Shown here piece after piece: positions 21,821 through 45,675 of a stretch of 64,000 nucleotides of DNA; position 1 is the stretch's first letter, and every line of letters begins with the position of its first letter. The DNA comes from Ignavibacteriales bacterium (lineage in GTDB: Bacteria > Bacteroidota > Ignavibacteria > Ignavibacteriales > Melioribacteraceae), in assembly GCA_026390795.1 (NCBI GenBank), contig JAPLFG010000003.1, positions 558,001-622,000 on the forward strand. Reading direction: 5' to 3'. Under the pieces are notes generated by a model. The model did not search any database, had not been told where the DNA came from, and worked only from the letters and a program-made list of their open reading frames with translations. The position numbers and the translations under genes are program-made.

Positions 21821-21822
21821 TT

Positions 21823-26905: not shown

Positions 26906-28060
26906 ATGCCGCTTTTTATTCTAGCAGTAATAGTTTTTATCATTGCCGATGTTATTATAAGATTTGCGATAAAAACAGTAAATGAGAAGAAAACCCGTAA
27001 AGAACGAGAAGCAATATTAGATGAAAGTATCAGCCTTGATTTGAGCCAGGAAGCAGTTTCGCTTAAACGTGCCGAAGTGCCAAATCCAAAAGCAAAAATT
27101 TTATGTGTTGATGACGAAGATATTATTCTCGACAGTTTTAGAAAAATTCTTGTACTCGACGGTTACTCGGTTGATACTGTTACTTCCGGCTTTCATGCAT
27201 TGAATTTGATAAAATCCCATCATTACGATTTTGTTTTCACAGATTTAAAGATGCCTGAAATGGACGGAGTTGAAGTAACCAAAAAAGTGAAATTCCTTAG
27301 ACCGGATATTGATGTTATAATTATCACCGGTTATGCAACTGTTGAAACTGCTGTCGATTGCATGAAGTTTGGTGCAATGGATTATGTTCAGAAACCATTT
27401 ACAGAAGACGAATTGTTGGCATTTACTCAAAAATCTTTGGTGAAGAGACAAGAAAGAATTCATAAACAACTTAAACCGCGTGTTCATATTACTCATTTAA
27501 CTGAAGAAGATACATTAAACGTTGGTGAGTTTTCGATTCCGGGCGGTGTTTTTATCTCCGAAGGACATTGCTGGGCAGCGATTGCGCAGGATGGAACAGT
27601 TCGAATTGGATTAGATGATTTCGCAAAAAAATTAATCGGCAAAATTGATGACATCGAATTACCAAATCTTGGTATGGGAATCACGAAAGGACAGCCATTA
27701 TTCATTATTAAACAAGGGAAAAAATCGATTCAATTTAATTCTCCAATAAGCGGACAGGTAGCTAAAGTTAATCAAGAATTAGCCGATAATCTTTCAGCAT
27801 TAGATTATTCAACGTACGAAAAAAATTGGATCTGCATCATTGATGCTGACAAATTGGATACAGAACTAACTCAGCTCAAAATTGGCAAAAATGCGGTTAA
27901 TTATTTTCAGGATGAAATAGAGACGTACAATAAACGTATAAAGGATTTTATAAAGAGTGATGGAAACAAAGCTGAAAATTATGAAATGTACTGGGGACAA
28001 CTTGAAAATCTGGAAGAAAAGGAATGGTACATCATTACAGGAGAATTTTTTAAAAAATAA
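26906..28060 (+). CDS. Membrane-anchored response regulator with a GcvH-like C-terminal domain
   Basis: 384 residues. An N-terminal hydrophobic helix (2-20) followed by Lys/Arg-rich sequence anchors the protein with its body in the cytoplasm. The receiver spans about 63-182: ILCVDDEDI, acceptor Asp113 in FTDLKMPEMDG, Lys in VQKPF. Residues about 205-345 are a GcvH-like domain: GHCWAAIAQDGTVRIGLDDFAKKLIG, LPNLGMGITKGQPLFII, NSPISGQVAKVNQELADN and a final helix. Lys272 falls exactly eleven residues before the Gly of PISG, the position of the lipoyl-lysine in GcvH, so lipoylation is possible. A REC-GcvH fusion with a membrane anchor has no assigned function that I know. AAGGAGA precedes the start, and the operon ends in a strong terminator 24 bases after the stop. 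Confidence 0.87.
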   Translation: MPLFILAVIVFIIADVIIRFAIKTVNEKKTRKEREAILDESISLDLSQEAVSLKRAEVPNPKAKILCVDDEDIILDSFRKILVLDGYSVDTVTSGFHALNLIKSHHYDFVFTDLKMPEMDGVEVTKKVKFLRPDIDVIIITGYATVETAVDCMKFGAMDYVQKPFTEDELLAFTQKSLVKRQERIHKQLKPRVHITHLTEEDTLNVGEFSIPGGVFISEGHCWAAIAQDGTVRIGLDDFAKKLIGKIDDIELPNLGMGITKGQPLFIIKQGKKSIQFNSPISGQVAKVNQELADNLSALDYSTYEKNWICIIDADKLDTELTQLKIGKNAVNYFQDEIETYNKRIKDFIKSDGNKAENYEMYWGQLENLEEKEWYIITGEFFKK

Positions 28061-28156: not shown

Positions 28157-28338
28157 AACTAGAGACATTAGAGTCTTTTATCTGATATTAGCATGTAATA
28201 TTTGATTTTTCGCTAATTTTTGCGACTTTGTAACTAAATTTTCTCAATATTCTTATCTGAAGTTGAATTATAGTCGCTTCAAAAAGGTAAATGAACTTAA
28301 TTTTTGAACATTACTTCTCAGCCCTACAAGAAAAATAT

Positions 28339-30333
28339 ATGAATAAATTTGTTTCATTAATATTCACATTAAGCTTTTTACTCTCCTCTATTTCCGCTCA
28401 GAGCAAAGATGACCAAGTATGTCTTGACTGTCATGGAGATAAAACATTTACTACGACGCGTAACGGAAAAGAGGTTTCCCTTTTTGTAAGTGGAAAGTCA
28501 TTTGCCGGATCTGTTCACGAGGAAGTTAGCTGTACCGGATGTCATTCCGATGTTGATCCTAATAATCTTCCTCACTCCGAGAAATTAAATAAAGTCGTTT
28601 GTGCAACATGTCATGAAACCCAGTCTTCCCATTATGATAGAAGTTTGCATGCACAAGCATATAAAAAAGGTTTATCGATTGCGCCAACTTGTGTTTCATG
28701 TCATACAAAACATGAAATTCTTTCTGCTAAAAATCCGAAATCAAGAACATATGTAATGAACATTCCCGCTCTTTGCGGTCAATGTCATAAAGAAGGAACT
28801 CAAGTTTCCGGGATGGTTAATCCAGAAGAACGGAAAGTTCTTAGTGATTATACTGAATCTATTCATGGTGAAGGACTATTTAAACGCGGGTTGATTGTAA
28901 CGGCAGTATGTACAAGCTGTCATACTTCACATGATATTCTTCCTCATACAAATCCATTATCAACAATTAATCGCAACAACATCGCAAAAACGTGTACTCA
29001 ATGTCACCGGCAAATCGAGCAAGTTCACCAAAAAGTAATCCGAGGTTCACTCTGGGAAAAAGAACCAAATAAAATTCCTGTTTGTATTGATTGCCACGCT
29101 CCGCATAAAATTCGTAAAGTTTTTTATGACGATAGTTTTCCGGATGATAAGTGCATGAAGTGTCATTCACAAAAAGATCTTTCTAAAATTGTTGATGGAA
29201 AAAGAGTTTCTCTATATATAGATGGTGAGCAATTTAAAAATTCTGCCCACAAAGTAAATTCTTGTATTAAATGTCATACAAATATTAGTAATTCAAAAAG
29301 CCCTGTCTGCTTAAATAGCGGAAAAGTTGATTGTTCTATTTGCCATACGGCTCAAGTTGATGATTATAACATTAGTCTACATGGACAAAAACACGCTGCC
29401 GGCGATAAGTTAGCGCCATATTGCTCGGATTGTCACACGACGCATAATGTTCAGTCGAAGAAGAATATCACATCTCCAACTTTTGCACGTAATGTACCGG
29501 AACTTTGCGGAAGATGTCACCGTGAAGGGAAAAATATTGCGGTCGCCTTAGATGAAAGCAAATTAGGAATTGTTGCCAACTATAGAGAAAGTATTCACGG
29601 CAAAGGTTTATTGCAAAGCGGATTGATAGTTACGGCGACATGCGTAAATTGTCATTCAAGCCACAGAGAGTTGCCAAAGAAAGACCCCCGTTCAACTGTA
29701 AATCCAAATAATATAGCTACAACTTGCGCACAATGTCATCTTGGTGTTTATGAAGAATTTAAGAAAAGCGTTCATAGTCCCGATGTTACCAAGACAGATA
29801 AAAAACTTCCGGTTTGTAACGACTGCCATTTGTCACATGAAATTAATCGGGTGGATTTAAAGGACTTCAAAACTTCAATAATTGTACAATGCGGCAAGTG
29901 CCACGAGAAAGTTACAGAGAGCTATTTCGAAACATTTCATGGCAAAGTTTCTAAACTTGGCTCTAGTAGAGCTGCTAGATGCTATGACTGCCATGGTGCT
30001 CATAATATTTTACCGGTGAGTAATCCTGCATCGCAATTGAGTCGCGGAAAAATTGTTGAGACTTGTAAAAAATGTCACCCAAATTCGAATAAAAAGTTTG
30101 TCGGTTATTTAACCCACGCCACACATCATAATAGAGATAAATATCCTTACCTTTATTTTACATTTTGGTTCATGGTAATACTTTTAACGGGCACATTTAC
30201 TTTCTTCGGTATTCACACCATCTTATGGTTCCCTAAAGCTTTGAAGGAAAACAAAAAGAACAAAGAGATTGAAAGAAAAAATGAAAAACTTGAAGAAGAA
30301 GAGACTGATGAGCATTATAACAAAGAAGATTAG
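28339..30333 (+). CDS. Multiheme cytochrome c, 19 CXXCH motifs, C-terminal membrane anchor
   Basis: Start set at ATG 28339 because it gives a clean signal peptide (MNKFVSLIFTLSFLLSSISA), although its SD is weak; an in-frame ATG at 28291 has AAAGG before it and would add 16 residues. 664 residues with 19 CXXCH motifs. Motifs 1-8 and 9-16 are an internal duplication: compare ALCGQCHKEG...SIHGEGL...GLIVTAVCTSCH with ELCGRCHREG...SIHGKGL...GLIVTATCVNCH. Three more hemes follow, then one membrane helix (about 610-635 counted from this start) and a charged cytoplasmic tail. It is thus a large periplasmic cytochrome tethered to the inner membrane. It is followed by a cytochrome b and a second cytochrome c/b fusion, so it is probably the electron acceptor in a quinol-oxidising complex. 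Confidence 0.9.
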   Translation: MNKFVSLIFTLSFLLSSISAQSKDDQVCLDCHGDKTFTTTRNGKEVSLFVSGKSFAGSVHEEVSCTGCHSDVDPNNLPHSEKLNKVVCATCHETQSSHYDRSLHAQAYKKGLSIAPTCVSCHTKHEILSAKNPKSRTYVMNIPALCGQCHKEGTQVSGMVNPEERKVLSDYTESIHGEGLFKRGLIVTAVCTSCHTSHDILPHTNPLSTINRNNIAKTCTQCHRQIEQVHQKVIRGSLWEKEPNKIPVCIDCHAPHKIRKVFYDDSFPDDKCMKCHSQKDLSKIVDGKRVSLYIDGEQFKNSAHKVNSCIKCHTNISNSKSPVCLNSGKVDCSICHTAQVDDYNISLHGQKHAAGDKLAPYCSDCHTTHNVQSKKNITSPTFARNVPELCGRCHREGKNIAVALDESKLGIVANYRESIHGKGLLQSGLIVTATCVNCHSSHRELPKKDPRSTVNPNNIATTCAQCHLGVYEEFKKSVHSPDVTKTDKKLPVCNDCHLSHEINRVDLKDFKTSIIVQCGKCHEKVTESYFETFHGKVSKLGSSRAARCYDCHGAHNILPVSNPASQLSRGKIVETCKKCHPNSNKKFVGYLTHATHHNRDKYPYLYFTFWFMVILLTGTFTFFGIHTILWFPKALKENKKNKEIERKNEKLEEEETDEHYNKED

Positions 30334-30378
30334 TTAACAAAAAGATAATTTAACTGAAGTAAAAACGAAAAGAGTAAT

Positions 30379-31233
30379 ATGGGTGATACTATAGAAGCAA
30401 AAAAAGGTAAATATTACGAAAGGTTTGATGCCTACTCAAGGTTTCTTCACATCTTAGTAATAACCAGTTTTATTTCTCTGGCTATTACCGGAATGATAAT
30501 TAAATTTTCGGGAAGCGGAATATTCCAAGTGCTTTCTGATATTATGGGCGGTTACGCGGTGACAGGGTTCATTCACCGAGTAGCGGCAATTGTAACATTC
30601 ATTTATTTCGGTCTTCACATTGGTTATCTAATCCGGAAGGTCAAGAAGAAGAAATCAAAATTTACATCGCTTCTGCGCGGTGAAAATTCACTAATGCTAA
30701 ACAAGAATGATTTAAAAGAATTTATCGCAACGATGAAATGGTTTCTTGGCAAAGGTCCGCGCCCGGAATATGGCAGATGGACTTACTGGGAAAAATTTGA
30801 TTATTGGGCAGTCTTTTGGGGTGTTGCCGTAATTGGATCGAGCGGATTAATCTTATGGTTTCCAGAATTTTTTACAAATCTCGGTTTGCCGGGATCATTT
30901 ATTAATATTGCAACAATTGTTCATAGCGACGAAGCTCTTCTTGCTGTCGGGTTTATATTCACGTACCACTTTTTCAATACTCACTTTCGTCCGGATAAAT
31001 TTCCAATGGATACGGTTATCTTTACGGGAAAAGTACATATTGATGAGTTAAAGTCGGACCGCCCGCGTGAATATGAAATAATAATGCAAGACCCGGAACT
31101 TCAGAAAAAATTTGGAGATGCACCGCCTGTATTTTTAAGAAGGGCTGCAAGAATTTTCGGCTTTACAGCATTAACTCTCGGTGTAATTTTAATTTTATTA
31201 ATTATTTATTCAATGTTGTTCTTATATCAATGA
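30379..31233 (+). CDS. Di-heme cytochrome b membrane subunit
   Basis: 284 residues with five hydrophobic helices, one extra near the C-terminus (about 258-280). Histidines lie inside helices where b-heme ligands are expected: FLHILV (24), FIHRVAAI (about 66), LHIGYL (about 79), IVHSDE (about 188) and TYHFFNTHF (about 202-206). The GLILWFPEFF segment is typical of the FdnI / HydC / CbcL b-type family. It should oxidise menaquinol and pass electrons to the large periplasmic cytochrome encoded just before it. It closely resembles in plan the C-terminal half of the next gene, which suggests duplication. Confidence 0.87.
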   Translation: MGDTIEAKKGKYYERFDAYSRFLHILVITSFISLAITGMIIKFSGSGIFQVLSDIMGGYAVTGFIHRVAAIVTFIYFGLHIGYLIRKVKKKKSKFTSLLRGENSLMLNKNDLKEFIATMKWFLGKGPRPEYGRWTYWEKFDYWAVFWGVAVIGSSGLILWFPEFFTNLGLPGSFINIATIVHSDEALLAVGFIFTYHFFNTHFRPDKFPMDTVIFTGKVHIDELKSDRPREYEIIMQDPELQKKFGDAPPVFLRRAARIFGFTALTLGVILILLIIYSMLFLYQ

Positions 31234-31255
31234 TATTTTTTTACGGAGTTTTTTC

Positions 31256-33679
31256 ATGTCGTCATTTTCGAAAAAGTTTTTTTTGAATTTAGTTTGCTAT
31301 AGCATCCTCCTTTTTTTAAGCAGCTATACGTATGCACAAGAATTTAAGTGCGGGGATTGCCATGAGAATGTAATTCAAAAATCAGTTCATAATGAAGTAA
31401 TCAGCTGCCAGGACTGCCATACTAACATTAAGGATGAAAGTCATACCGAGAAAAAAAATTACAAAAAGGTTAAATGCGAAACTTGTCATGAAGAATATGC
31501 AGATCTAGTTAAGAGCGATATTCATCATCGTTTAAAAGGAAAAGTAAAGAATCCTCCCGATTGTAAAAAATGCCACGGCACTCATGAAATTAAAACCCCT
31601 CCAAAAGAGAATAAACTGAAAGTAAAGGAATACTGTTCGCAGTGTCATACAAGCAGTTTGGTGCTTGCTAATCCATATCATTCTAAAGCTGTGGAAGGGA
31701 ATAAATGTATAAGCTGCCATAAACAAAATGATTATACAACGCTCAAAAAATCGGTTCATAAAGATTTAGAATGCGCTGATTGCCATAATTACATTTCCAA
31801 TAATCTTGGCAACCATCCGCAAAATGTAAGTGCAACACAAAAGGCAGATTGTTATTTGTGTCACTCAGCCATCGCAAAAGAACATAGAGAAAGTATTCAT
31901 GGAATTTCTTTAAGTGAAGGTATTGACGAAGCAGCTATGTGCTGGAACTGTCATGGTTCGCACGACATCAAAAAAGTAAATGACCCGAGCAGTAAAGTCT
32001 ATCCTAAGAATTTGGCTACAACATGCGGAACGTGTCATGATAATCCAAAGCTCGTCCAAAAATTTTCTTTCAGTATAAAAAATCCCGGGGTGCTTTATTC
32101 GAACTCTATTCACGGTAAACTAGTAGAACAAGGAAAATTGAATTCGGCAAATTGCAGTACCTGTCATGGTGTTCATAATATTAAAAATCGAATTCAACCG
32201 GGATCAACAATTTCCAGTTTCGAAATTCCCGAAACATGCGGACAATGCCACAGAGAAATTGCCGATGAATATGAAAAATCAATTCATTGGGTAAGAGCAA
32301 AAGCAGGAATACGCGAAGCTCCGGTATGTAATGACTGTCATTCCGAACACAGCATGCAGACAGTTAATAATCGTTTAGATGCGAGAAAACTACAACAGCA
32401 GACATGTATTATCTGTCATCAAAACCCAAAAATTGCTCAAAGATTTGGTATTTCCGGTGATCAAGTTAAACAATATGAAGACAGCTATCATGGTTTAGCA
32501 ATGCTGCGTGGCGATAAAGATGTTGCGTTGTGTGTAGACTGCCACAATGTACATAAAATTTTACCAAAGAATAATCCGGAATCGTCCGTAAATCAGTTAA
32601 ACGTAACGGCCACATGCAAGAAATGCCATCCGAATGCTACCGATACATTTGCAAAAAGTTATTCTCACAAAACATTAGACAACGTTGCTTCGAAAATTGA
32701 AAATTTTGTAGGAACAATTTATTTCTGGCTTATCATTTCAGTTATTGGAGGTATGATTCTTCATAACCTTCTAATTTTTGTTTATGAGATTCGTAAAAAA
32801 AGACGGCATGAGAAAACAGAAATCAGAATTCCAAGATTTACAAAGAATGAAGTTATCCAGCATTATTTACTTTTAACTTCATTTCTTACACTAGCAATAA
32901 CAGGATTCGCTCTTAAATACCATGCAAGCTGGTGGGCGGAATTATTACAAACATTTGGATTGAGCGAAACAGCACGTCAATACATTCACCGCAGTGCGGC
33001 TGTTGTTATGATTACAAGCGGTTTATACCATATATTCTATTTATTATTTACACCTCGCGGAAGAGATGTTCTCTTAAATTTAATTCCGAAATTTCATGAT
33101 ATAACCGATGCCCGCGATAATATTCTTTATTATCTGCGCCTGAAAAAAGATAAACCGAAATTTGATACTTATGACTACACAGAAAAAGCCGAATATTGGG
33201 CATTAATTTGGGGAACAATTGTTATGGGTGCAACCGGATTTATATTATGGTTCCCAACAGTTGTCGGCAACTGGGCTCCAACATGGTTAATTAAAGTCAG
33301 CGAGTTAATTCATTTCTACGAAGCAATTTTAGCAACACTTGCAATTATTGTATGGCATTGGTTCTTTGTAATCTTCCACCCACATGAATATCCTATGAGT
33401 CTAACTTGGATGGACGGAAAAATGTCTCTTCATACATACCGCCATCATCATGAAAAACATTTTAGACGGTTGGTTCTTGAATTCAAGGAATTTAAAAGCG
33501 GTCTTCGAGATCTTAAGAAAGTTAGCAACTCGACTCTATTATTTACTTCAACATTAGAAAAGAACGGGCTTAATGCGGAATCAGTGATTCAACATGAAAT
33601 TGATAATGATCCGGAGTTAAGAATCTGGGTTGAAGAAAACCTTGACAAAAAGGTTGAGAAAAAAGAAAATATTGTTTAA
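31256..33679 (+). CDS. Fused multiheme cytochrome c (16 CXXCH) and di-heme cytochrome b, CbcL-like architecture
   Basis: 807 residues. A signal peptide ending at YTYAQ leads into a periplasmic part with 16 CXXCH motifs (about 34-460). A linking membrane helix (about 480-505) follows, and then a cytochrome b domain (about 525-710) with His-bearing helices (IQHYLLLTSF, YIHRSAAVV, LYHIFYLL, LIHFYEAI, WHWFFVIFH). GFILWFPTVV matches the same place in the preceding cytochrome b. The architecture, periplasmic c-hemes fused to an inner-membrane b domain, is that of the Geobacter CbcL menaquinol dehydrogenase, but the heme number is higher and I claim only architectural likeness. With the two genes before it, it forms a module with 35 c-type motifs and two b-type subunits. 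About 130 bases without a gene follow it. Confidence 0.9.
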   Translation: MSSFSKKFFLNLVCYSILLFLSSYTYAQEFKCGDCHENVIQKSVHNEVISCQDCHTNIKDESHTEKKNYKKVKCETCHEEYADLVKSDIHHRLKGKVKNPPDCKKCHGTHEIKTPPKENKLKVKEYCSQCHTSSLVLANPYHSKAVEGNKCISCHKQNDYTTLKKSVHKDLECADCHNYISNNLGNHPQNVSATQKADCYLCHSAIAKEHRESIHGISLSEGIDEAAMCWNCHGSHDIKKVNDPSSKVYPKNLATTCGTCHDNPKLVQKFSFSIKNPGVLYSNSIHGKLVEQGKLNSANCSTCHGVHNIKNRIQPGSTISSFEIPETCGQCHREIADEYEKSIHWVRAKAGIREAPVCNDCHSEHSMQTVNNRLDARKLQQQTCIICHQNPKIAQRFGISGDQVKQYEDSYHGLAMLRGDKDVALCVDCHNVHKILPKNNPESSVNQLNVTATCKKCHPNATDTFAKSYSHKTLDNVASKIENFVGTIYFWLIISVIGGMILHNLLIFVYEIRKKRRHEKTEIRIPRFTKNEVIQHYLLLTSFLTLAITGFALKYHASWWAELLQTFGLSETARQYIHRSAAVVMITSGLYHIFYLLFTPRGRDVLLNLIPKFHDITDARDNILYYLRLKKDKPKFDTYDYTEKAEYWALIWGTIVMGATGFILWFPTVVGNWAPTWLIKVSELIHFYEAILATLAIIVWHWFFVIFHPHEYPMSLTWMDGKMSLHTYRHHHEKHFRRLVLEFKEFKSGLRDLKKVSNSTLLFTSTLEKNGLNAESVIQHEIDNDPELRIWVEENLDKKVEKKENIV

Positions 33680-33812: not shown

Positions 33813-34337
33813 ATGAATTACAAAACTTCTCTTCTCGTATTAATTATTGTTGCAGCTTACCTTTTTATGCCGACAAATACAAATGCACAAGCCAAATTTG
33901 TCGGTAGCAAAACTTGCGGAATGTGCCATAAATCCGAAAAACAAGGGCAACAATTAAAAATTTGGTCTGAAAGCAAACACGCTCAGGCATACAAAGTTCT
34001 CTTAACTCCTCAAGCAGATGAAATAGCTATGAAGAAAGGCGGGAAAAAAGCTGCTGAAACACCAGAATGTTTGAAATGCCATGTTGGTGAAAAAGCATTA
34101 GTTGAATCTACTTTTAAAGAAGACGGCGTACAATGCGAAACATGTCATGGTGCTGGTTCAGAATATAAAACAATGTCCGTTATGAAAAACAAAGAAGAAG
34201 CAATTAAAAAAGGTTTAACTGTTCCAGAAGGTGAAAAATTCTGTAAGACATGTCATAATTCAGCAAGTCCTACTTTCAAAGAATTCAAGTATGCTGAAAT
34301 GTGGAAAAAAATCGCTCATGCAACACCTAAAGGTTAA
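33813..34337 (+). CDS. Periplasmic tetraheme cytochrome c, c554-like
   Basis: 174 residues with a signal peptide (ending near NTNAQ) and four CXXCH motifs: CGMCH, CLKCH, CETCH and CKTCH. The opening FVGSKTCGMCHKSEKQGQQL and WSESKHAQAYKVL are typical of the cytochrome c554 family (PF13435-like), as is the short helix-rich body. It is probably a soluble shuttle between the inner-membrane cytochrome complexes and the outer-membrane conduit encoded next. CGGAGGAAAAA before the start is the strongest ribosome binding site of this block, consistent with an abundant carrier. Confidence 0.9.
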   Translation: MNYKTSLLVLIIVAAYLFMPTNTNAQAKFVGSKTCGMCHKSEKQGQQLKIWSESKHAQAYKVLLTPQADEIAMKKGGKKAAETPECLKCHVGEKALVESTFKEDGVQCETCHGAGSEYKTMSVMKNKEEAIKKGLTVPEGEKFCKTCHNSASPTFKEFKYAEMWKKIAHATPKG

Positions 34338-34358
34338 TTCTATTTTATAGAGCATAAA

Positions 34359-35627
34359 ATGAAAAAAATATTTTTGCTGTTTCTCTTTTTTAGTCTGCCG
34401 TTTATGATTTCTGCCCAGAATCTTAACGGCAGCATCTCTTCTTCATTCTATACATTCGAGAGATTTGATACACTCAAGACTTCCGATACATTCATTAGAA
34501 ATTTCGAAACCTTATCGCTTAACTTCAATTATAATAAGATTTCGCTTCGAACCCGAATGAACTTTGAAACGAATCTCAGCAATTCTTTGGATAGTGATCC
34601 TCGAATGAGATTTTACAATTTATATCTTGAAGCCCGCGATATATTCGATCTGTTCACATTGAAACTCGGCAGACAGCCTTTATTTACACCTGTTGCCGGC
34701 GGATTATATGATGGAGTTAATCTAAAATTTAGATACTCCGGTATCTCAATCACCGGTTTTTACGGCGGAAATGTTCCGGCTTATCAAAAATTACAAATGA
34801 CTACAGACCTAAGCAATGATTACGTTTTAGGTGGTAAAATTGATCTGAATTTTCTTGAACATTTTAATTTTGGATTGAGCTACATGGACAAAAACTTCAA
34901 ACCTCTTGATTTCACGGCTTTGAGGTTAGATGCCAATTTAAATTTGATTCAAGTACTTATAGAACAGAAATCGAATCAATTTAAATTTCTTACCGCAGAG
35001 GCGTCATATTTCTTAAATGAGAAAGTAAATATTGATACACGATACGAATACGATTTGAATTTCAGCACAACATCTAAATTTGAAGTCAACGGGCGCGTTC
35101 AAGCCACAGATGAATTAGGTATTGATGCTTATTATAATTACCGCGAACCGAAGATCAGATACAATTCCATTTTTTCTGTGTTTGATTACGGCAATTCGCA
35201 AGAAATGGAAGGCGGAATTGACTATAAATTAAATAAGGATATAACCATTTTTGGTAAATATGGAAACGTAATTTACGATGATGATAGTTCTCAAAGATTA
35301 AATATTGGAGCCACAACAGCATACGGCAGTTTCAGCTACAGAAAAACATTCGGATATGCCGGAGAACTTGATGCGGTTTCAATTTATACAGCACACACTT
35401 TCGGCGATGGCTTTATTACTCCGTCAGTCGGAATTGCTTTTACAAATTACAAACTCTCAGCAGATTCAGAAGTTAATACTATAACAAGCCTTCTTGGCGG
35501 TGTAAATTTAAGACCATGGACTTATCTATCATTTGATCTTCAGGGTCAGTATTTCAATAACAAAATTTACAAAGATGATTTCAGAATTCTGTTCAAAGTA
35601 AATTACTGGTTTAATACTAATTTCTAG
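34359..35627 (+). CDS. Outer-membrane beta-barrel protein, probable porin of a cytochrome conduit
   Basis: 422 residues with a signal peptide ending at MISAQ. The mature protein is built of alternating amphipathic strands through its whole length (LSLNFNYNKISLRTRMNF, LYLEARDIFDLFTLKLGRQP, FNFGLSYMDKNF, IDTRYEYDLNF, YLSFDLQGQYF). It ends in Phe, as outer-membrane barrels do; 16 to 20 strands seem possible. It lies between a tetraheme shuttle and two further multiheme cytochromes, one a lipoprotein, the same set of parts as porin-cytochrome conduits. By sequence alone it could also be an ordinary porin. It has no heme motif. Confidence 0.8.
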   Translation: MKKIFLLFLFFSLPFMISAQNLNGSISSSFYTFERFDTLKTSDTFIRNFETLSLNFNYNKISLRTRMNFETNLSNSLDSDPRMRFYNLYLEARDIFDLFTLKLGRQPLFTPVAGGLYDGVNLKFRYSGISITGFYGGNVPAYQKLQMTTDLSNDYVLGGKIDLNFLEHFNFGLSYMDKNFKPLDFTALRLDANLNLIQVLIEQKSNQFKFLTAEASYFLNEKVNIDTRYEYDLNFSTTSKFEVNGRVQATDELGIDAYYNYREPKIRYNSIFSVFDYGNSQEMEGGIDYKLNKDITIFGKYGNVIYDDDSSQRLNIGATTAYGSFSYRKTFGYAGELDAVSIYTAHTFGDGFITPSVGIAFTNYKLSADSEVNTITSLLGGVNLRPWTYLSFDLQGQYFNNKIYKDDFRILFKVNYWFNTNF

Positions 35628-35633
35628 AATATT

Positions 35634-36842
35634 ATGAAAATAAAATATCTATACGGCGCCCTATCTCTATTTCTAATTTGTTTTTTGACAATTGCTGCAA
35701 TTAACAAGAACGGAAACAGTGAACAGGAAAAAACTAATAAAGATGTAATTAAATTTTCGCACAAAGTGCATAAAGATATTACTGATTGCGCATCATGTCA
35801 TACCGCAGTATCCGAGAGCACGACTCTTAATATGCGACTCCTTCCTGAAAAATCTGTCTGTGAGACTTGTCATGATGTCGATGATGAAAAAAATTGCAAG
35901 CAGTGTCATTACGAAGATATAAACGAACCGCTGATTCAGAAGAAACCGGAAATGATTTTCAATCATAAATTTCATTTAACGGATCAGAAACTGGTTTGTG
36001 AATCTTGCCATAAAGGTTTGTCGGATGTTAATTATAGTTTCGAATCGGTTTCTGCTTTACCTGCAATGTCGGTTTGTTATGATTGTCATAACGGAACTAC
36101 AAAAGCAACAAACGTGTGCGAATCTTGTCATATCTCAACCGTTAAATTGATTCCACAAGATCATAAACAAGTATCTTTCTTAAAGAATCATAAGTTCACT
36201 GCGACGAAAGATGATGCTCAATGCCAAATGTGTCATAACAATTCATTCTGCGAATCATGTCACGTTTCTACAACCATGATTACTGAAAATAATAGTTCAC
36301 GCGATTTCTATACACCTTATTCACCACACAAATTTATTGATAATACAAAACAGCAGAATATAACAAGAGTACATGATTTGAATTATCAATTCACGCATGG
36401 AATTGATTTAAAAGGCAAAACATCGGAATGCCAGACATGTCATCAGCCAGAGACCTTCTGCGCTAAATGCCATGATTCTAAAGGCGGCGACTTTGCACTT
36501 GAAGGAACTCTTCCAACATCACACAAAGCTCCGAACTTTGTTACAATTGGCGTTGGAACAGGCGGCGGTCAACATGCAGTTCTAGCGCGTAGAGATATCG
36601 AACAATGTTCTTCATGTCACGATCTTCAAGGTGCTGATCAAAATTGCATTCTTTGCCATGTTGATAATGATGGAATCAAAGGAACTAATCCAAAAACGCA
36701 TCCAAGAAGTTTTGGTGCCGATTTGGAAAAAGGTGATTGGCATACAGACCAAGGATCGGTCTGCTATTCTTGTCATACAGATGCTAATGCACGTCCTGGT
36801 GGTATTAAAGGAGTCGGCTTCTGCGGTTATTGTCATAAATAA
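35634..36842 (+). CDS. Periplasmic multiheme cytochrome c, 14 CXXCH motifs
   Basis: 402 residues. The first 25 residues form a hydrophobic signal or anchor without a clear cleavage site. I count 14 CXXCH motifs. Scattered histidines (FSHKVHKD, FNHKFHLT, DHKQVSF, NHKF) are placed as distal ligands. Very short spacing occurs in places, for example CQMCHNNSFCESCH, which brings hemes close together as in wire-like cytochromes. It starts six bases after the barrel gene and is followed by the surface-type lipoprotein, so it is a good candidate for the inner, periplasm-facing cytochrome of the conduit. Confidence 0.9.
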   Translation: MKIKYLYGALSLFLICFLTIAAINKNGNSEQEKTNKDVIKFSHKVHKDITDCASCHTAVSESTTLNMRLLPEKSVCETCHDVDDEKNCKQCHYEDINEPLIQKKPEMIFNHKFHLTDQKLVCESCHKGLSDVNYSFESVSALPAMSVCYDCHNGTTKATNVCESCHISTVKLIPQDHKQVSFLKNHKFTATKDDAQCQMCHNNSFCESCHVSTTMITENNSSRDFYTPYSPHKFIDNTKQQNITRVHDLNYQFTHGIDLKGKTSECQTCHQPETFCAKCHDSKGGDFALEGTLPTSHKAPNFVTIGVGTGGGQHAVLARRDIEQCSSCHDLQGADQNCILCHVDNDGIKGTNPKTHPRSFGADLEKGDWHTDQGSVCYSCHTDANARPGGIKGVGFCGYCHK

Positions 36843-36863
36843 AAATTTTTTTCTGGATAAACT

Positions 36864-38036
36864 ATGAGATATACAAAATTTTATTTGCTCTTACTCGTTT
36901 CACTTGGAATTTTCTCTTCCTGCAGCGATTTAAAAAATGATGTGACTGCCCCGTCAAATTTTGCACTTCATGGCGTGGATGTCTTAAATCCTGCTTCGAT
37001 TAGTTTTCACGGTGTTACAGTAAAAGAGAAAGGATTGGAAAGCTGTAAACAATGTCATTCTTCAAAATTCGATGACGGAACTGCAATGTTAAGTTGCGCT
37101 TCGGTTAACTGCCATCCAAATATTTCTGTTCACCAGAACAAAGCGGCAATTAACGATCCTGCTTCATCATATTTTCATGGTTTGTTTATTGAGACAAAGA
37201 ATTTGAAAATGAGCGACTGTAACCAATGTCATGGAGCTAATTATTCCGGTGGAATTGCAAGTCCTGCTTGCAGCAGTTGTCACACGACAATTACCGTTCA
37301 TCAAAATGGAATTTCTGATCCCGCTTCGCAAAATTTTCATGGAAAATTTATTGCATCATTGAAATGGGATATGACAAATTGCAAAACATGTCATGGAACT
37401 AATTATGCCGGTAAGGTTGCAAGTCCATCGTGCAATACCTGCCACACAAATACCGGCGGACCGGAAGCGTGCAATACTTGTCATGGTAATTTTTCTGATC
37501 CTACTTCCATTGCACCGCCTAAAGATATTGCAGGTGATGTTGATACAAAATTTGCTGGAGTTGGTGCTCACGCTTCTCATCTTAAAAGTAGTAAAATTGG
37601 AATCGTTAAGTGTTCCGAATGTCATAACGTTCCTGCCACATTAAATTCTGCTGGACATATTGATAATACGGCAAGAGCTGAAGTTGTTTTCAAGACATAT
37701 GATTCCGCAGTTGGATCTTCCGCTTACGATTTGAGTACTTACAAATGTACCAACAATTATTGCCACGGAAGTTTTGCTTTTTCAAAAGCTAATTCTCAAT
37801 ATCCTTTCGCTTATACCGCCGATAAAATTGAGGGAAACAATTATCAACCGATATGGAATAAAGTTGATAATACTCAAGCTGCATGCGGTACATGTCATGG
37901 TTTACCTCCAAAAGGACACGTGGATGCTGATCTGAAAGGCTGTGCAACTTGTCATGCCGGAGTTGTTGATCAGTACGGTAAAATTATTGATGCAACAAAA
38001 CATATGAATGGCAAAATAAACGTCTTCGGAAATTGA
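36864..38036 (+). CDS. Multiheme c-type lipoprotein with CXXCH and CX4CH motifs
   Basis: 390 residues. The N-terminus ends in LGIFSSCSD, a lipobox-type cysteine, so it is likely a lipoprotein. There are nine CXXCH and two CX4CH motifs (CASVNCH and CTNNYCH). The CX4CH followed later by CXXCH is the pattern of the Geobacter outer-surface cytochrome repeat family (GSu_C4xC__C2xCH). Residues about 45-200 carry three related repeats, each with FHG, then CXXCH, GG or GK, SPxC and a second CXXCH. These features suit an outer-membrane, possibly cell-surface, electron-transfer cytochrome. It is the last gene before a strong terminator. Confidence 0.88.
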   Translation: MRYTKFYLLLLVSLGIFSSCSDLKNDVTAPSNFALHGVDVLNPASISFHGVTVKEKGLESCKQCHSSKFDDGTAMLSCASVNCHPNISVHQNKAAINDPASSYFHGLFIETKNLKMSDCNQCHGANYSGGIASPACSSCHTTITVHQNGISDPASQNFHGKFIASLKWDMTNCKTCHGTNYAGKVASPSCNTCHTNTGGPEACNTCHGNFSDPTSIAPPKDIAGDVDTKFAGVGAHASHLKSSKIGIVKCSECHNVPATLNSAGHIDNTARAEVVFKTYDSAVGSSAYDLSTYKCTNNYCHGSFAFSKANSQYPFAYTADKIEGNNYQPIWNKVDNTQAACGTCHGLPPKGHVDADLKGCATCHAGVVDQYGKIIDATKHMNGKINVFGN

Positions 38037-38052
38037 AATAATTTTTATTTTC

Positions 38053-38080
38053 AAAGCCGCTTTCGAGCGGCTTTTTTTTT
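38053..38080 (+). terminator. Rho-independent terminator after the conduit genes
   Basis: A 9-bp perfect stem AAAGCCGCT / AGCGGCTTT with TTCG loop, running into nine T's. It begins 17 bases after the stop of the lipoprotein cytochrome. Confidence 0.92.
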
Positions 38081-38853: not shown

Positions 38854-39678
38854 ATGCTTCAATCGATAGATATACTAAATTTTTTACTTCCTCTCTTTTA
38901 TGCACTTGCATTTGCAATATACTGTTTCGATTTTTTCAATGAGAAGAAGTTTATAAGCGATTCCAAGCGAATAGTTTTATTCGTCACATTGCTTTTACAT
39001 ACTTTTTATTTAATATCTAGAACAATTGAATATAACCATCCGCCGATAACTAATAAATTTGAGATATTTTCTCTAATTGCTTTCTCGATCGGATTCTCTT
39101 ATTTCGTTCTTGAACTGCTGACTGATATTCGCGGAACCGGTGCTTTCATTATCTTATTTTCTCTTTTTTTTCAGACCATTTCTTCTCTCTTTGTTGAACA
39201 CAATTACATAGTTCCGGAGGTTTTAAGGAACCGTCTTCTTGGACTTCATGTAGTCAACGCACTTTTGGGATATTCCGGAATTACGGTCTCTGCGGTTTAC
39301 GGACTGCTTTATATGCTTCTCTACAAAAACTTAAAAACCAATAAATTCGGTTTGATCTTCGATCGATTACCAAATCTGGAAATTTTAGAAAAGCTCAGTT
39401 TTTATTCTGCCGTAATTGGTTTTGTACTTTTAACATTTGCAATTGTTATAGGAATTATTTGGCTTCCGAGCGCCTTCCCGCATTTCAGCTATCTTGATCC
39501 AAAATTAATTGGCACTTTATTCGTCTGGTTTGTTTACGGAATCGGAATTTTAAGTAAACTTTTAGGCGGTTTGTATGGTAAAAAAGTAATTCTTTTTTCA
39601 TTAATCGGTTTTGTTGTTGCGATACTATCATTGATAACTACGAACACATTGGCAAAGACGTTTCACTCGTTTTATTGA
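38854..39678 (+). CDS. CcsA/HemX-like cytochrome c assembly membrane protein
   Basis: 274 residues, eight hydrophobic helices. A WWD-like periplasmic element is reduced, but the family layout is visible: YNHPPITNKFEIFSLIAFSIG (His in the early periplasmic loop), LLGLHVVNALLGYSGITVSAVYGLLYML, and a late LIGTLFVWFVYGI helix. Proteins of this type immediately before hemA are called HemX in Bacillus and are thought to influence glutamyl-tRNA reductase level; CcsA itself handles heme for cytochrome c maturation. The sequence does not decide between the two. It is the first gene of the heme operon, 10 bases before hemA, and has almost no leader. Confidence 0.83.
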   Translation: MLQSIDILNFLLPLFYALAFAIYCFDFFNEKKFISDSKRIVLFVTLLLHTFYLISRTIEYNHPPITNKFEIFSLIAFSIGFSYFVLELLTDIRGTGAFIILFSLFFQTISSLFVEHNYIVPEVLRNRLLGLHVVNALLGYSGITVSAVYGLLYMLLYKNLKTNKFGLIFDRLPNLEILEKLSFYSAVIGFVLLTFAIVIGIIWLPSAFPHFSYLDPKLIGTLFVWFVYGIGILSKLLGGLYGKKVILFSLIGFVVAILSLITTNTLAKTFHSFY

Positions 39679-39688
39679 AAGTTTTAAA

Positions 39689-41014
39689 ATGAATTTAGTC
39701 GGCATATCAATAAATCATAATACTTCTCCTCTCGATCTTCGAGAAGCAATCCATCTTAGTCGGGATGAAATTGTAGAGTTCATCCCTCGCTTAAAGGAAT
39801 CTTTGTTTTCTGAAGGAGTTGTAATTTCAACGTGCAACCGGACTGAAATATTCGGCTTTCCTGAAAATTCTGGATTAGACACAACACAGCTTATAGAAAA
39901 ACTTATTGATTTCAAACCGGGTGCGGGCATTCAACCGCAGCATATTACAAAATATTTTTCTTGCGGGGCAGTTAAACATTTATTCTCTGTAGCTTCTGGA
40001 ATTGATTCAATGATAATAGGCGACAGCCAAATTTTGGGACAGGTAAAAGAGGCATTCGAAATTTCGGAGGATTTAAGTTTTGCAGGATCTGTTCTTCGCC
40101 GAATCTTTGATACGGCAACCCGGACTGGAAAACGTGCTATTAAAGAAACGACAATAGGAGAAGGCGCTGTAACTGTTAGTTACGCGGCTGTTCAAGTTGT
40201 TGAAAAGATTTTTGCTAATCTCGAGAAGAAATCTGCGCTTGTAATTGGAGCTGGCGAAACAGGAGAACTTGCAGCAATTCATCTTCGGGATAAAGGAGTT
40301 GGCAAAATTGCTATTTGTAACAGAACAATTGATCGTGCAGAAAAATTGGCAGAAAAAGTTCATGGGGAAATAATTCCATTTCAATTTCTAGCTGAACAAC
40401 TGCAAAACTTTGATATTATAATCAGTGCAACAAGCGCCGATAATCTAATAATTTCTTTTGATAACGTTAAAGCTGCTGTCAAAAAAAGACGTGGTTCACC
40501 TGTTGTCTTAATGGATATTGCAGTTCCACGCGATATTGATCCGGAAGTGAAGAAAATTGATAATGTGTTTTATCACGATATGGATTCGCTAAAAATCATT
40601 GTAGATCAAAATTTACAGAAGCGGCGCGATCAGATTCCGCTCGTAAATAAAATAATTATGGAAGAAATGATAGGGTTCTTCGGCTGGTATAATACACTTG
40701 ATGTTGTACCTACAATCAAAACTATGCGTTCTTTTTTCGAAGAGATACGGCACGACGAACTTGAGAAGATTAGGAATAAAGTAAGTGATGATGATTACAC
40801 AAAGATTGAAGATATGACACGCAGAATGATCGGTAGGCTTCTTCATAATCCAACTGTCAAACTGAGAGAGTTTGCTGAAACCGGAGCCAACATAAATGAT
40901 GTAACGGCCAAAACAATGATTTTGAAAGAATTATTTAATCTGGATCATTTGCAGTCAAATGGAAATGAATCGAATAATGATAATAAATCTGAGGAGAATT
41001 TTGATAAAGAATAA
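39689..41014 (+). CDS. hemA: Glutamyl-tRNA reductase
   Basis: 441 residues, full length. The catalytic cysteine is Cys49 in ISTCNRTEIFGF, preceded by GISINHNTSPLDLRE as in all GluTR. The NADPH-binding Rossmann part starts at ALVIGAGETGELAA (about 185) after EGAVTVSYAAVQV. The C-terminal dimerisation helix is present. It reduces glutamyl-tRNA to glutamate 1-semialdehyde, the first committed step of the C5 heme route; its partner HemL is encoded 12.7 kb downstream at the end of this region. The last 14 bases overlap the probable start of hemC. Confidence 0.96.
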   Translation: MNLVGISINHNTSPLDLREAIHLSRDEIVEFIPRLKESLFSEGVVISTCNRTEIFGFPENSGLDTTQLIEKLIDFKPGAGIQPQHITKYFSCGAVKHLFSVASGIDSMIIGDSQILGQVKEAFEISEDLSFAGSVLRRIFDTATRTGKRAIKETTIGEGAVTVSYAAVQVVEKIFANLEKKSALVIGAGETGELAAIHLRDKGVGKIAICNRTIDRAEKLAEKVHGEIIPFQFLAEQLQNFDIIISATSADNLIISFDNVKAAVKKRRGSPVVLMDIAVPRDIDPEVKKIDNVFYHDMDSLKIIVDQNLQKRRDQIPLVNKIIMEEMIGFFGWYNTLDVVPTIKTMRSFFEEIRHDELEKIRNKVSDDDYTKIEDMTRRMIGRLLHNPTVKLREFAETGANINDVTAKTMILKELFNLDHLQSNGNESNNDNKSEENFDKE

Positions 41015-41945
41015 ACTTGTGATCGGATCGCGCGGCAGTGCACTTGCACTCTGGCAAGCTAATTTTATTAAAAAGGAATTGGAACGAAAAAATAAAGATC
41101 TTTCAGTAGAAATAAAGATCATAAATACTAAAGGCGATAAGATTCTTGATGTAGCACTTTCTAAAATTGGCGATAAAGGTTTATTCACAAAAGAATTGGA
41201 AAATGAATTGCTGAAAGGAACAATTGATATTGCTGTTCACAGTTTGAAAGATTTACAGACTGAAATTCCAAAAGGATTGAAACTTGCCGCTGTTACTAAA
41301 CGTCACCCCGTTGAAGATATTCTGATTGCTCGTAAAAAGGGAACCAAAATTAACAACCTACCCGAGAATGCAATTGTAGCTACAGGTTCGCTTAGAAGAA
41401 GATCTCAATTGCTTCATCTTCGTCCTGATTTAAGAATTGAAGAACTTCGCGGCAATGTTCCTACAAGAATTAAAAAGTTTTTAGACTCTAAGTGGGATGC
41501 AATAATTTTAGCCCGTGCCGGCGTTGAAAGACTGAAACTGAACAAGCATATTTCAAGTATCATAAGCACTGATGAAATATTACCCGCGGTTGGACAAGGC
41601 GCTCTAGGAATTGAGATTAAAGAGAATAATAAACTTGCAGAAAGAGTTTTAAAATCAATCCATGATGAAAAAACTTATGTTGCAATTCGCGCTGAACGTG
41701 CATTATTGAAATCCTTAGAAGGCGGCTGCCAGGTTCCTATCGGCGCACTTGCACAAGTAAAAACAAATGGGTTATATCTTGATGCGATGGTTGGATCAGT
41801 TGATGGTTCGGTTACTTTCAGAAAGAAAATGCGAGGCACGAAAGCAGATCCGGAAAAACTTGGTCAAAATTTAGCAAAGGATTTACTAAAAGCAGGTGTT
41901 GCTGCAATTTTGAAAGATGTTTACAATAATGCGCGGTCAAAATGA
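41001..41945 (+). CDS. hemC: Hydroxymethylbilane synthase
   Basis: The probable start is the TTG at 41001, four bases after GAGGAG, which yields MIKNKLVIGSRGSALALWQ, the normal family N-terminus (314 residues). ATGs at 40959 and 40977 in the same frame would add 8-14 residues inside hemA and lack a good SD. Motifs: the RGSALAL loop, KDLQTEIPKG, GSLRRRSQL (substrate-binding arginines), ELRGNVPTR, and the dipyrromethane-cofactor Cys in EGGCQVPIGA. It joins four porphobilinogens to hydroxymethylbilane. It overlaps hemA by 14 and hemD by four bases. Confidence 0.95.
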   Translation: MIKNKLVIGSRGSALALWQANFIKKELERKNKDLSVEIKIINTKGDKILDVALSKIGDKGLFTKELENELLKGTIDIAVHSLKDLQTEIPKGLKLAAVTKRHPVEDILIARKKGTKINNLPENAIVATGSLRRRSQLLHLRPDLRIEELRGNVPTRIKKFLDSKWDAIILARAGVERLKLNKHISSIISTDEILPAVGQGALGIEIKENNKLAERVLKSIHDEKTYVAIRAERALLKSLEGGCQVPIGALAQVKTNGLYLDAMVGSVDGSVTFRKKMRGTKADPEKLGQNLAKDLLKAGVAAILKDVYNNARSK

Positions 41946-42727
41946 ATTCACTAAGAAACAAAACGATACTTATTACCAAGAGTGAACTGGAAAGCAAAAA
42001 GAATTTAGATGCTTTGAAACATGAAGGCGCTGAATTACTTTTTTGCCCGACGATTAAAATTGTACCGGCAATTAATTCTCCGGAACTTGATGATGCGTTA
42101 CGGATGTTTAATCAATTTGATTACCTGGTATTTACATCCGCCAATGCTGTCGAAGTTTTTTTTGATATCGCTGCTAAAAGAAAGCTGAATCTATCAAAAG
42201 CAAAAGTAGCTGTTGTAGGAAAAAGCACTGCCGATGAATGCGAATCCGTTGGAATCAGAGTTGATATTATACCGGATGAATTCAGTTCAAAAGGATTGAT
42301 TGACAAATTATCAGAATTTGATTTGATAAATAAAAAAATATTTATTCCCGGCTCTTCTCTATCTGGCGGAGATCTGAATCTTGGTTTATCTGAACTTGGC
42401 GCACAAGTATATTCAGTTCCGGTTTATGATGTTGTTCCAAACGACTTGAACAATTTAAAAAACGAGCACAAGAAAATTCAAAAGAAACATCCTAACGTTT
42501 TTATTTTTACAAGTCCTTCTTCGTTTAATAATTTTCTTAGAATAATGAGTGTTACGGATTCTGATAAGTATTTTGGAACAAGTACCATTTGCGCTATTGG
42601 GGCCACTACTGAAAGCGCGATACGAGAAAAAGGGCTTGCAGTACATATTGTACCAAAAACTTTTTCGCTTCAAGGTGTTTCAGAAGCGATTATAAAATAT
42701 TTTCAAATTACTGCTGATATAGCATAA
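41942..42727 (+). CDS. hemD: Uroporphyrinogen-III synthase
   Basis: 261 residues with the loosely conserved HemD fold: NKTILITKSELESKKNLDAL at the start, YLVFTSANAVEVFFDIA (about 60-75) and VFIFTSPSSFNNFLRIM in the second lobe, and ICAIGATTESAIREKGL near the end. These are the family's usual FTSxNAV and IGxTT landmarks. It closes and inverts ring D of hydroxymethylbilane. Its ATG overlaps the hemC stop (ATGA), and the low conservation of this enzyme makes its position between hemC and hemE the strongest support. Confidence 0.93.
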   Translation: MNSLRNKTILITKSELESKKNLDALKHEGAELLFCPTIKIVPAINSPELDDALRMFNQFDYLVFTSANAVEVFFDIAAKRKLNLSKAKVAVVGKSTADECESVGIRVDIIPDEFSSKGLIDKLSEFDLINKKIFIPGSSLSGGDLNLGLSELGAQVYSVPVYDVVPNDLNNLKNEHKKIQKKHPNVFIFTSPSSFNNFLRIMSVTDSDKYFGTSTICAIGATTESAIREKGLAVHIVPKTFSLQGVSEAIIKYFQITADIA

Positions 42728-42738
42728 CCGGAGGATTC

Positions 42739-43785
42739 TTGACCAAATTAAAAAATGATTTATTTCTTAGAGCTTGCAAAGGAAAATCAGTTGAATATAC
42801 ACCGACGTGGATAATGCGTCAAGCAGGAAGATATCTGCCGGAATATAGAGCTATCCGAGAAAAAGCCGATTTTATAACGATGTGCAAAACACCTGAACTC
42901 GCGGCAGAAGTTACAATTCAACCAGTTGATATTATTGGAGTTGATGCGGCAATCATATTTTCTGATATACTTGTAATTCCTGAGGCGATGGGAATGCATC
43001 TTGAGATGATTGAAAGCAAAGGTCCAAAACTTTATAATCCAATCCGCACAGCAGATGATGTTAATAAATTGAAAGTGATTGATCCAACGAAGGATTTGAA
43101 ATATGTGCTTGATGCCGTCTCTCTTGCTAAAAGAGAATTGAACGGACGTGTTCCGTTAATTGGTTTTGCAGGCTCACCTTGGACTTTAATGACCTACATG
43201 GTTGAAGGCGGCGGATCAAAAAGTTTTTCGGAGATAAAAAAATTCATTTACAACAAGCCTAAAGCCGCACACTTGTTGTTGCATAAGTTGGCAGATTCTG
43301 TTGCCGATTATCTTTCGGCAAAAATTGAAGCCGGTGCAAATGCAGTTCAGATATTTGATACTTGGGGCGGATTACTTTCGCCGACCGATTTTGAAGAATT
43401 TTCTCTAGCGTATATTCAGAAAGTTATTTCTCAAATTAAAAGAAAAGACGAGCCTGTAATTGTATTTGCTAAAGGCGTTCATTATAAATTGAACAAGCTT
43501 GCGGATTGCGGAGCGGATGTTATTGGTCTTGATTGGACAATGGAACTTGGGAAAGTTAGAAGTAAGATCGGCAACAAAGTCGCACTTCAAGGGAACCTTG
43601 ATCCGACAGTTTTGTATGGTGATAAAGATAAAATTAGAAAAGAAGCGATAAAAGTATTGAAGTCATTCGGTAAACATAACGGTCACATCTTCAATCTCGG
43701 ACACGGTATATTACCTGACGTTCCGCCAGAAAACGCGAAATATTTAGTAGATGTTGTTAAAGAAGAGAGTAAAGTGTTTCATTAG
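42739..43785 (+). CDS. hemE: Uroporphyrinogen decarboxylase
   Basis: 348 residues from a TTG start at 42739 preceded by CCGGAGGA. The start includes the signature PTWIMRQAGRYLPEYRAIREK, whose Arg and Asp residues bind the substrate carboxyls. Later landmarks are IIFSDILVIPEAMGM, GFAGSPWTLMTYMVEGGGS, FDTWGGLLS, GLDWTMELG and HGILPDVPPENA. It decarboxylates the four acetate side chains of uroporphyrinogen III. A four-helix-bundle element follows immediately and separates it from hemN. Confidence 0.96.
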   Translation: MTKLKNDLFLRACKGKSVEYTPTWIMRQAGRYLPEYRAIREKADFITMCKTPELAAEVTIQPVDIIGVDAAIIFSDILVIPEAMGMHLEMIESKGPKLYNPIRTADDVNKLKVIDPTKDLKYVLDAVSLAKRELNGRVPLIGFAGSPWTLMTYMVEGGGSKSFSEIKKFIYNKPKAAHLLLHKLADSVADYLSAKIEAGANAVQIFDTWGGLLSPTDFEEFSLAYIQKVISQIKRKDEPVIVFAKGVHYKLNKLADCGADVIGLDWTMELGKVRSKIGNKVALQGNLDPTVLYGDKDKIRKEAIKVLKSFGKHNGHIFNLGHGILPDVPPENAKYLVDVVKEESKVFH

Positions 43786-43794
43786 TAAGGAAAG

Positions 43795-44256
43795 AAGGAA
43801 AGAATCGTCCCGCTTCGCAGGACTCAAAGAAGAAATTAGATGAAGACTTTTGAAGAGATACCGGTTTATCAAAAATCAAAAGAATTATGTGTAGAGATTT
43901 ACAGATTAAATAATTCTAAATTTCAAAAGGATTTCGGTTTTAAAGATCAAATACAAAGAGCAGCTATTTCTGTAATGAATAATATTGCAGAGGGTTTTGA
44001 AAGAGGCAGCAACAAAGATTTTGTAAAATTTCTCTATTACTCAAAAGGATCTGTTGGAGAAATAAGAAGCCTATTAAATGTTGCCGTTGAGTTGGGCTAT
44101 ATTGAACCACAACTCTATGAAAAGTTGAAGAATGATTGTTTGGAAATTTCGAAACAACTTTCAAATTTTATAAAATATTTATCAACAAAATAGAACCATC
44201 ATTAATTATTGAGCGAAGCGATTCTTTCCTTTTTTGGATGGAATGATTCTTTCCTT
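43795..44256. repeat. Inverted-repeat-bounded element around a four-helix-bundle gene
   Basis: AAGGAAAGAATCG at 43795-43807 returns as its exact inverse CGATTCTTTCCTT at 44219-44231; a second partial copy GATTCTTTCCTT is at 44245-44256. Next to these, CGCTTCGC (43811-43818) pairs with GCGAAGCG (44213-44220). Transcript from hemE to hemN would therefore bring the two ends together in a 20-bp interrupted stem with the small gene in the loop. Confidence 0.7.
43840..44193 (+). CDS. Four-helix-bundle protein (S23 / TIGR02436 type)
   Basis: 117 residues, all alpha. The family landmarks are present: EEIPVYQKSKELCVEIY, GFKDQIQRAAISVMNNIAEGFERGS (helix 2-3 signature), FLYYSKGSVGEIRSLLNVAVELGY and a last amphipathic helix. 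Proteins of this family are encoded in 23S rRNA intervening sequences and at many chromosomal sites; some (Avd) serve diversity-generating retroelements, but there is no reverse transcriptase here. The function is unknown. It interrupts the heme operon and lies between inverted repeats; no good SD is seen before the ATG. Confidence 0.85.
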   Translation: MKTFEEIPVYQKSKELCVEIYRLNNSKFQKDFGFKDQIQRAAISVMNNIAEGFERGSNKDFVKFLYYSKGSVGEIRSLLNVAVELGYIEPQLYEKLKNDCLEISKQLSNFIKYLSTK

Positions 44257-44278
44257 AGTGAATTAGACTGGAGTAGAA

Positions 44279-45655: not shown

Positions 45656-45675
45656 TTTTTAGAAAGGAAAATCTT

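Follow-up and report, generated by a model that had tools for sequence, protein, structure and literature searches.

Does the four-gene set at positions 33813–38036 of the analysed window encode a machine that carries electrons across the outer membrane, and which way would they flow? The window is a 64,000-nucleotide stretch (positions 558001–622000 on contig 3) of a 4.08 Mb Ignavibacteriales genome whose completeness is given as 100%. The four genes very probably make up a porin–cytochrome (Pcc) conduit of the Ignavibacterium type, most likely one that passes electrons out of the cell. All lie on the forward strand, separated by only 21, 6 and 21 bases. They encode a tetraheme c554-type cytochrome (33813–34337, 174 residues), a predicted outer-membrane β-barrel (34359–35627, 422 residues), a 14-heme c7-type cytochrome that is a candidate wire through the barrel (35634–36842, 402 residues) and a lipoprotein cytochrome that is a candidate surface terminal (36864–38036, 390 residues). 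Heme motifs counted by script number, in gene order, 4 CXXCH, none, 14 CXXCH, and 9 CXXCH plus two CX4CH, 11 in total for the last protein. The arrangement as first described is confirmed, with coordinates and motif counts exact. The original prediction also had the set closed by one terminator. An intrinsic-terminator-like hairpin of nine pairs with a T tail is indeed present at 38053–38074 on the forward strand. The window scan yields 8 terminator-like sites and 8.4 are expected in shuffled sequences, so the hairpin stands on its own quality alone, and a single terminator after four genes is no demonstration of a single transcript. Promoter-like sites in the same scan show no excess (43 vs 42.7 expected).

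The gene order recurs in related genomes, where it had been suggested to look for it. We hand-chose 40 larger loci of the order and class from the barrel matches. A homologue of the 14-heme gene directly follows the barrel in 40/40 of them, and the last cytochrome comes next in 37/40, which argues that the arrangement is not due to chance. In two of the remaining loci another multiheme gene lies between, and in one no match is seen. The c554 gene adjoins the barrel in 31/40. The wire homologue carries 14 motifs in 35 of these loci, 12 in four, and 13 plus one CX3CH in one. The named loci are those of the 80 best among 156 relatives. The c554 gene is directly upstream of the barrel in 70/80 of them, with six of the ten misses at a locus edge. 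In 71/80, the next gene downstream of the barrel carries exactly 14 motifs; it has 13 in two and fewer in three, and none is recognized in four, several of these cases being at edges. The named loci partly overlap the other sampled genomes, so the counts are not additive. In a phylum sample, which overlaps the near-relative sample discussed below, the barrel is found in 58/395 genomes: 37/40 in the order, 20 in the rest of the class and one outside the class. The named relatives are Melioribacter, Melioribacteraceae, Stygiobacter, Ignavibacterium and other Ignavibacteria, in keeping with the Ignavibacteria-like genome that had been proposed, and nearly all are environmental genomes. The closest of the relatives listed is 93% identical in the barrel and labelled just Bacteroidetes. 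Pairwise distances of the barrel and the 14-heme protein correlate best of four protein pairs (0.67 for 34 sequences from sampled genomes, 0.61 for 65 named sequences including the window), and none of 999 permutations is as high. In loci L042 and L043, the wire has 12 motifs, and a further multiheme gene, with 5 CXXCH and one CX4CH, separates it from the terminal cytochrome. Locus L060, from another class of the phylum, has a distant set with a c554-type gene before, a 12-motif wire, a terminal cytochrome and a 19-heme/cytochrome b pair after; its barrel match is weak, at 27 bits.

The set is a further copy of a published kind of Pcc cluster, not a new kind. As described in the sections of the articles that we draw on here and below, Ignavibacterium album JCM 16511 has one Pcc cluster, IALB_1837–1840 (Shi et al. 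2014, PMC4245776). IALB_1840 is a periplasmic cytochrome, 1839 is porin-like, 1838 has 400 residues and 14 motifs, and 1837, an outer cytochrome, contains an atypical motif. Relative to other Pcc groups, the porin and 1838 are distant, and 1838 is treated as periplasmic (PMC4245776). Compared by order, size and motif number only, the window has the same gene order, matching sizes (402 vs 400 residues for the wire) and the same 14 motifs. With regard to the identity of the set, the porin–cytochrome conduit of the original prediction is supported; a cluster that agrees with it in order, sizes and heme numbers was already in print in 2014. For Melioribacter roseus, a Geobacter-like Pcc cluster has been reported (PMC7399161, PMC6137239), as has Fe(III) reduction (PMC6137239). 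This species belongs to the same bacterial family, judging by the names of the relatives; the loci labelled Melioribacter roseus here are environmental genomes. In PMC5492636, on M. roseus, the terms porin, multiheme and outer membrane are absent. By description, the set also resembles the OmbB–OmaB–OmcB and ext clusters of Geobacter sulfurreducens, which comprise a porin-like barrel (18–22 predicted strands), a periplasmic multiheme cytochrome and an outer lipoprotein cytochrome of the CX4CH type (PMC4245776, PMC6148476). It differs from them in the periplasmic cytochrome, which has 14 hemes here and 8 or 12 there. An outer-membrane lipoprotein cytochrome is part of most, though not all, published Pcc clusters (PMC4245776). 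By the published Pcc criteria, the strand number of the barrel (22, in a confident model) is in range, and the adjacent cytochrome, 6 bases downstream, falls within the 5–14 motifs with its 14 CXXCH. The adjacent lipoprotein cytochrome has a lipobox, 11 motifs and Ser at +2, and its outer-membrane location is predicted.

Shewanella MtrCAB follows the same principle of barrel, wire and surface cytochrome. The numbers are different: 22 strands here vs 26–28, with 26 being what we take as the strand number of MtrB, and 14 and 11 motifs here vs 10 and 10. The figure of 28 strands is a published prediction for MtrB (PMC4245776). Membership of the MtrCAB/MtoAB group was considered and dropped, as the whole genome has no match to MtrB_PioB (PF11854, the one barrel family sought genome-wide), the barrel matches no Pfam family and the motif numbers are 14 and 11 rather than 10 and 10.

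The barrel gene is single-copy in the genome, and its product contains no cysteine. No Pfam or NCBIfam family was matched by the barrel, and a search of viral contigs gave no relative. The AlphaFold2 model from 42 aligned sequences is confident (predicted local distance difference test 89, predicted template-modelling (TM) score 0.77) and has 24 strands. Two strands of six residues are read as an extra hairpin, which leaves 22 strands crossing the membrane; an N-terminal plug is absent in the model. Counted in this way, the strands are joined by turns with a mean length of 3.4 residues on one side and by loops with a mean of 9.3 on the other, the usual pattern of outer-membrane proteins. The worry that the protein might be a small closed porin, or no barrel at all, is therefore not borne out by the strand count from structure prediction. 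The standard barrel formula with an assumed shear number gives a radius of 20 Å, compared with 23.5 Å for 26 strands. According to the model, a plugless barrel of this size would be a large open hole unless filled. A Foldseek search against the PDB returned many barrels, an usher first, with TM-scores by query of about 0.3–0.5 among the 50 matches listed. In VIA-align, the best matches come from receptor barrels and ushers (Z up to 20.8, root-mean-square deviation 4–5, identity about 10%); these give the size class and not the ancestry. The receptor barrels at the top, which are of a similar size class, contain a plug. Among the Foldseek and VIA-align matches listed, no chain is described as MtrB, which is no evidence of a difference in fold.

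Conservation within the barrel is not confined to its strands. The mean is 2.48 bits in the extracellular loops, 2.54 in the strands and 1.65 in the periplasmic turns. The most conserved 12-residue segments fall in the loop of residues 263–279 (35145–35195, forward strand; segment RYNSIFSVF), where N269, F272 and F275 are invariant. This loop is called extracellular from strand parity. The named loci were retrieved by the barrel loop pattern and are uninformative on its conservation. The model is uncertain exactly at residues 269–276, within the loop. The loop may contact a cytochrome, and such a partner might be what orders it.

The 14-heme protein matches Pfam cytochrome c7 types. Twelve of its 13 non-motif histidines, plus Met145, are conserved in every aligned sequence (116 sequences, to two decimals), suggesting that most of its hemes are probably bis-His ligated. 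The best match of its profile among solved structures is 3ov0 (E 6.6e-30), which we take to be a Geobacter 12-heme protein, followed by subunits of Alternative Complex III. The c554-type protein matches Pfam Cytochrome_C554 (PF13435, E 2.4e-15) and is probably a periplasmic electron carrier to the wire. In 106 sequences, only two non-motif histidines are conserved for its four hemes (His56 and His169), with Met124 at 0.97; some of the hemes therefore need other distal ligands or none.

The last protein matches Pfam c7 types. It also scores above the cut-offs of both PF09698 and TIGR01904 for the Geobacter CxxxxCH..CXXCH domain, which bears out the Geobacter-type pattern of CX4CH and CXXCH motifs first noticed in it. 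Its profile finds nothing among the sequences of solved structures up to E 0.01. By a loose rule devised for this analysis, a lipobox is present in 114/115 sequences, the sole exception (L151) having an apparently broken frame. Among these 114, Ser is at +2 in 103, Asp or Glu at +3 in 90, and residues +2 to +9 are net acidic in 82. In Escherichia coli, Asp after the lipoprotein Cys causes retention in the inner membrane. The window signal reads CSDLKND, with Ser and not Asp after Cys, so this rule does not apply, and the retention at the inner membrane raised beforehand as an objection is not borne out. An outer-membrane location is predicted. Surface signals in Bacteroides and Flavobacterium start with Ser-Asp-Asp (PMC5080379), to which CSDLKND is similar only; Ignavibacteria and Chlorobi have no occurrences in that article.

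In most of the sequences compared, the wire keeps 14 motifs while the terminal cytochrome varies. In 66 named loci with a terminal multiheme gene found away from the edge, its motif total ranges from 4 to 29, most commonly 7 (33 loci) and then 9 (21 loci). Terminal frames were read from stop to stop, so a few of the extreme values may stem from genes that are broken or fused. The total is odd in 62/66, as expected if hemes are gained or lost in pairs. Changes in pairs or multiples have been suggested before (PMC7399161), and in Geobacter the extracellular parts are variable and the periplasmic parts conserved (PMC6148476). Two-heme repeats are visible by eye in the terminal protein; a regular expression caught only one stretch, and a DNA repeat search in the gene found none. 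This constancy against a variable terminal cytochrome, a single extracellular loop as the most conserved part of the barrel, and an atypical N-terminus of the 14-heme protein are what the present analysis adds to the published picture.

The conduit assignment rests on the parts and their order, the plugless barrel, genes kept together, the steady motif number and conserved His and Met145 of the wire, the distance correlation of barrel and wire, the lipobox, a CbcL-like fusion directly upstream, the I. album cluster and the Fe(III)-reducing Melioribacter. Judged from sequence features, electron export by the set is likely. From these we infer an assembled complex, the placement of its carriers, an outward direction and an acceptor, as follows. 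Quinol would be oxidized at the inner membrane by neighbouring multiheme or b-type cytochromes. Periplasmic cytochromes, probably including the c554-type protein, would relay the electrons to the 14-heme wire, which would run inside the open 22-strand barrel, and the surface lipoprotein cytochrome would then take them over to an external acceptor, e.g. Fe(III) oxide. Three forward-strand genes directly upstream may serve the first step. A 19-heme cytochrome (28291–30333, 19 CXXCH) with a C-terminal hydrophobic segment, seen by eye, is a probable neighbour in the route. It is followed by a cytochrome b561-type membrane protein (30379–31233; PF01292, E 6.7e-10) and by a fusion of a 16-heme part with a cytochrome b domain (31256–33679; 16 CXXCH, PF01292 at residues 531–709), the candidate electron entry. 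The fusion, whose heme motifs precede a b-type cytochrome domain at the C-terminus, is likened to CbcL/MtrH/MtoC by layout; its 16 motifs, compared with 9 in Geobacter CbcL, are within the family range of 3–23 (PMC6295460).

Several observations weigh against this assignment. Seating of the 14-heme protein in the barrel is a candidate arrangement: its model is confident only to about residue 167 and poor beyond, too poor to judge threading. The barrel profile finds nothing up to E 1 among the sequences of solved structures. The 14-heme profile reaches 6r2q_A, presumably MtrA (listed there as cystathionine beta-synthase), only at E 0.0055. The set is not universal: a barrel match is present in 50/57 near-relative genomes, among them 44/48 of those that are near-complete, and several of the 50 matches are fragments located where a contig ends. 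Of the seven genomes lacking a match, four are near-complete. The genes at 28291–33679 accompany the set in part of the family and are missing from many members; the interval first described is exact for the four genes and leaves this accompanying trio outside. The other three distance pairs (0.23–0.58) also exceed every permutation, so the correlation of barrel and wire reflects joint inheritance and not contact. Finally, the N-terminus of the 14-heme protein is less like a cleaved signal than those of its neighbours, and it may be anchored in the inner membrane. A small residue plus Gln at the end of the hydrophobic core is found in only 12/117 sequences, compared with 76/106 for c554 and 79/98 for the barrel. 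Sequences without the search anchor were left out of these counts (3/120 for the 14-heme protein, 0/106 for c554 and 23/121 for the barrel). A strict A-x-A count was uninformative (13, 12 and 16 sequences) and was replaced by this one.

This N-terminus bears on a different placement, which we judge unlikely. The 14-heme protein could be anchored in the inner membrane within a quinol-oxidizing complex, with the barrel filled otherwise or serving as a separate channel, and the genes kept together through one shared respiration. Its hydrophobic core has a median of 20 residues vs 15 in both the c554 and the barrel proteins, in line with the rarity of the signal-like end. The confident part of its model resembles Alternative Complex III subunits (Z 5.0–6.0), and elsewhere in the genome a protein of the ActA/QrcA type (E 9.8e-22, below the family cut-off) has a similar N-terminal helix and a KFSH motif. 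However, a looser cleavage pattern is found in 56/117 sequences (64/106 for c554, 31/98 for the barrel) and does not separate the proteins, and Z-scores of 5–6 are weak and may reflect merely a common arrangement. The 14-heme gene also directly follows the barrel in every larger locus, whereas the neighbouring inner-membrane genes vary, and in Shi et al. the protein from I. album counts as periplasmic (PMC4245776). A wider proposal, which we put forward only tentatively and with considerable doubt, would keep the anchor within the conduit. The 14-heme protein would be anchored as in the ActA/QrcA-type cytochromes of quinol complexes and would couple an electron-entry module of the inner-membrane type directly to the outer-membrane barrel. 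The wire would be fixed at 14 hemes across most of the class, with the surface cytochrome alone exchanged or lengthened, mostly in two-heme steps, and outside electron exchange would be a core trait ancestral to the order and passed on vertically.

The conduit could also be real but run inward, or in both directions, with Fe(II), a mineral or a partner cell as the electron source. We consider this improbable, even though nothing in the sequence sets the direction of flow and relatives of CbcL/MtrH/MtoC occur in both Fe(III) reducers and Fe(II) oxidizers (PMC6295460). The related Melioribacter, reported with such a cluster, is an Fe(III) reducer (PMC6137239), and an outer cytochrome is present here, while Fe(II)-oxidizing mtr clusters often have none (PMC4245776). 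It is very improbable that the set instead reduces a soluble compound such as a nitrogen oxide, with the c554-type protein as catalyst or donor and no electron export: c554 proteins are known from nitrogen metabolism (NF043010, E 1.3e-12, below that family's cut-off) and two conserved histidines for four hemes could leave an open heme, but no terminal reductase is recognized among the window proteins scanned (not every open reading frame), a large plugless barrel with a lipoprotein cytochrome suits export better, and the c554 gene is away from the barrel in 9/40 larger loci.

The surroundings of the conduit genes are rich in redox and regulatory functions. Further upstream, 20915–24188 encodes an iron–sulphur protein, a membrane protein of the NrfD type and a cytochrome with 13 motifs, which together are probably a second module leading from quinol to cytochrome. 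Between this module and the trio at 28291–33679 lie genes for a sensor kinase and response regulators. The histidine kinase at 24185–26083 has one CXXCH in its sensor part and, by eye, a stretch of cysteine pairs in its kinase part; it might sense redox state for the cluster through heme or a metal. The protein at 26906–28060 fuses a receiver domain (E 2.7e-30) to a glycine-cleavage H-protein domain (PF01597, E 8.7e-19), an unusual pairing amid a respiratory cluster, and that at 26083–26874 resembles this fusion by eye. Downstream of the set come a response regulator and, at 38854–46629, genes for a cytochrome c assembly-type protein and for heme biosynthesis, with hemA, hemC, hemD and hemE recognized by eye and ferrochelatase by Pfam. 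Homologues of both 38854–39678 and 39689–41014 are within reach in 19/80 named, 5/20 larger order and 0/19 class loci, many of the loci being short on the downstream side.

With this window, a conduit described so far in a few genome papers gains a well-preserved example from a genome listed as complete. A first structure of such a conduit could aim concretely at the wire, with its fixed number of 14 hemes, and at the conserved extracellular loop; the anchoring of the 14-heme protein is what most deserves to be followed up. With the barrel present in 37/40 of the genomes sampled from the order, exchanging electrons with the exterior would seem to be commonplace among these bacteria of sediments, groundwater and hot springs.

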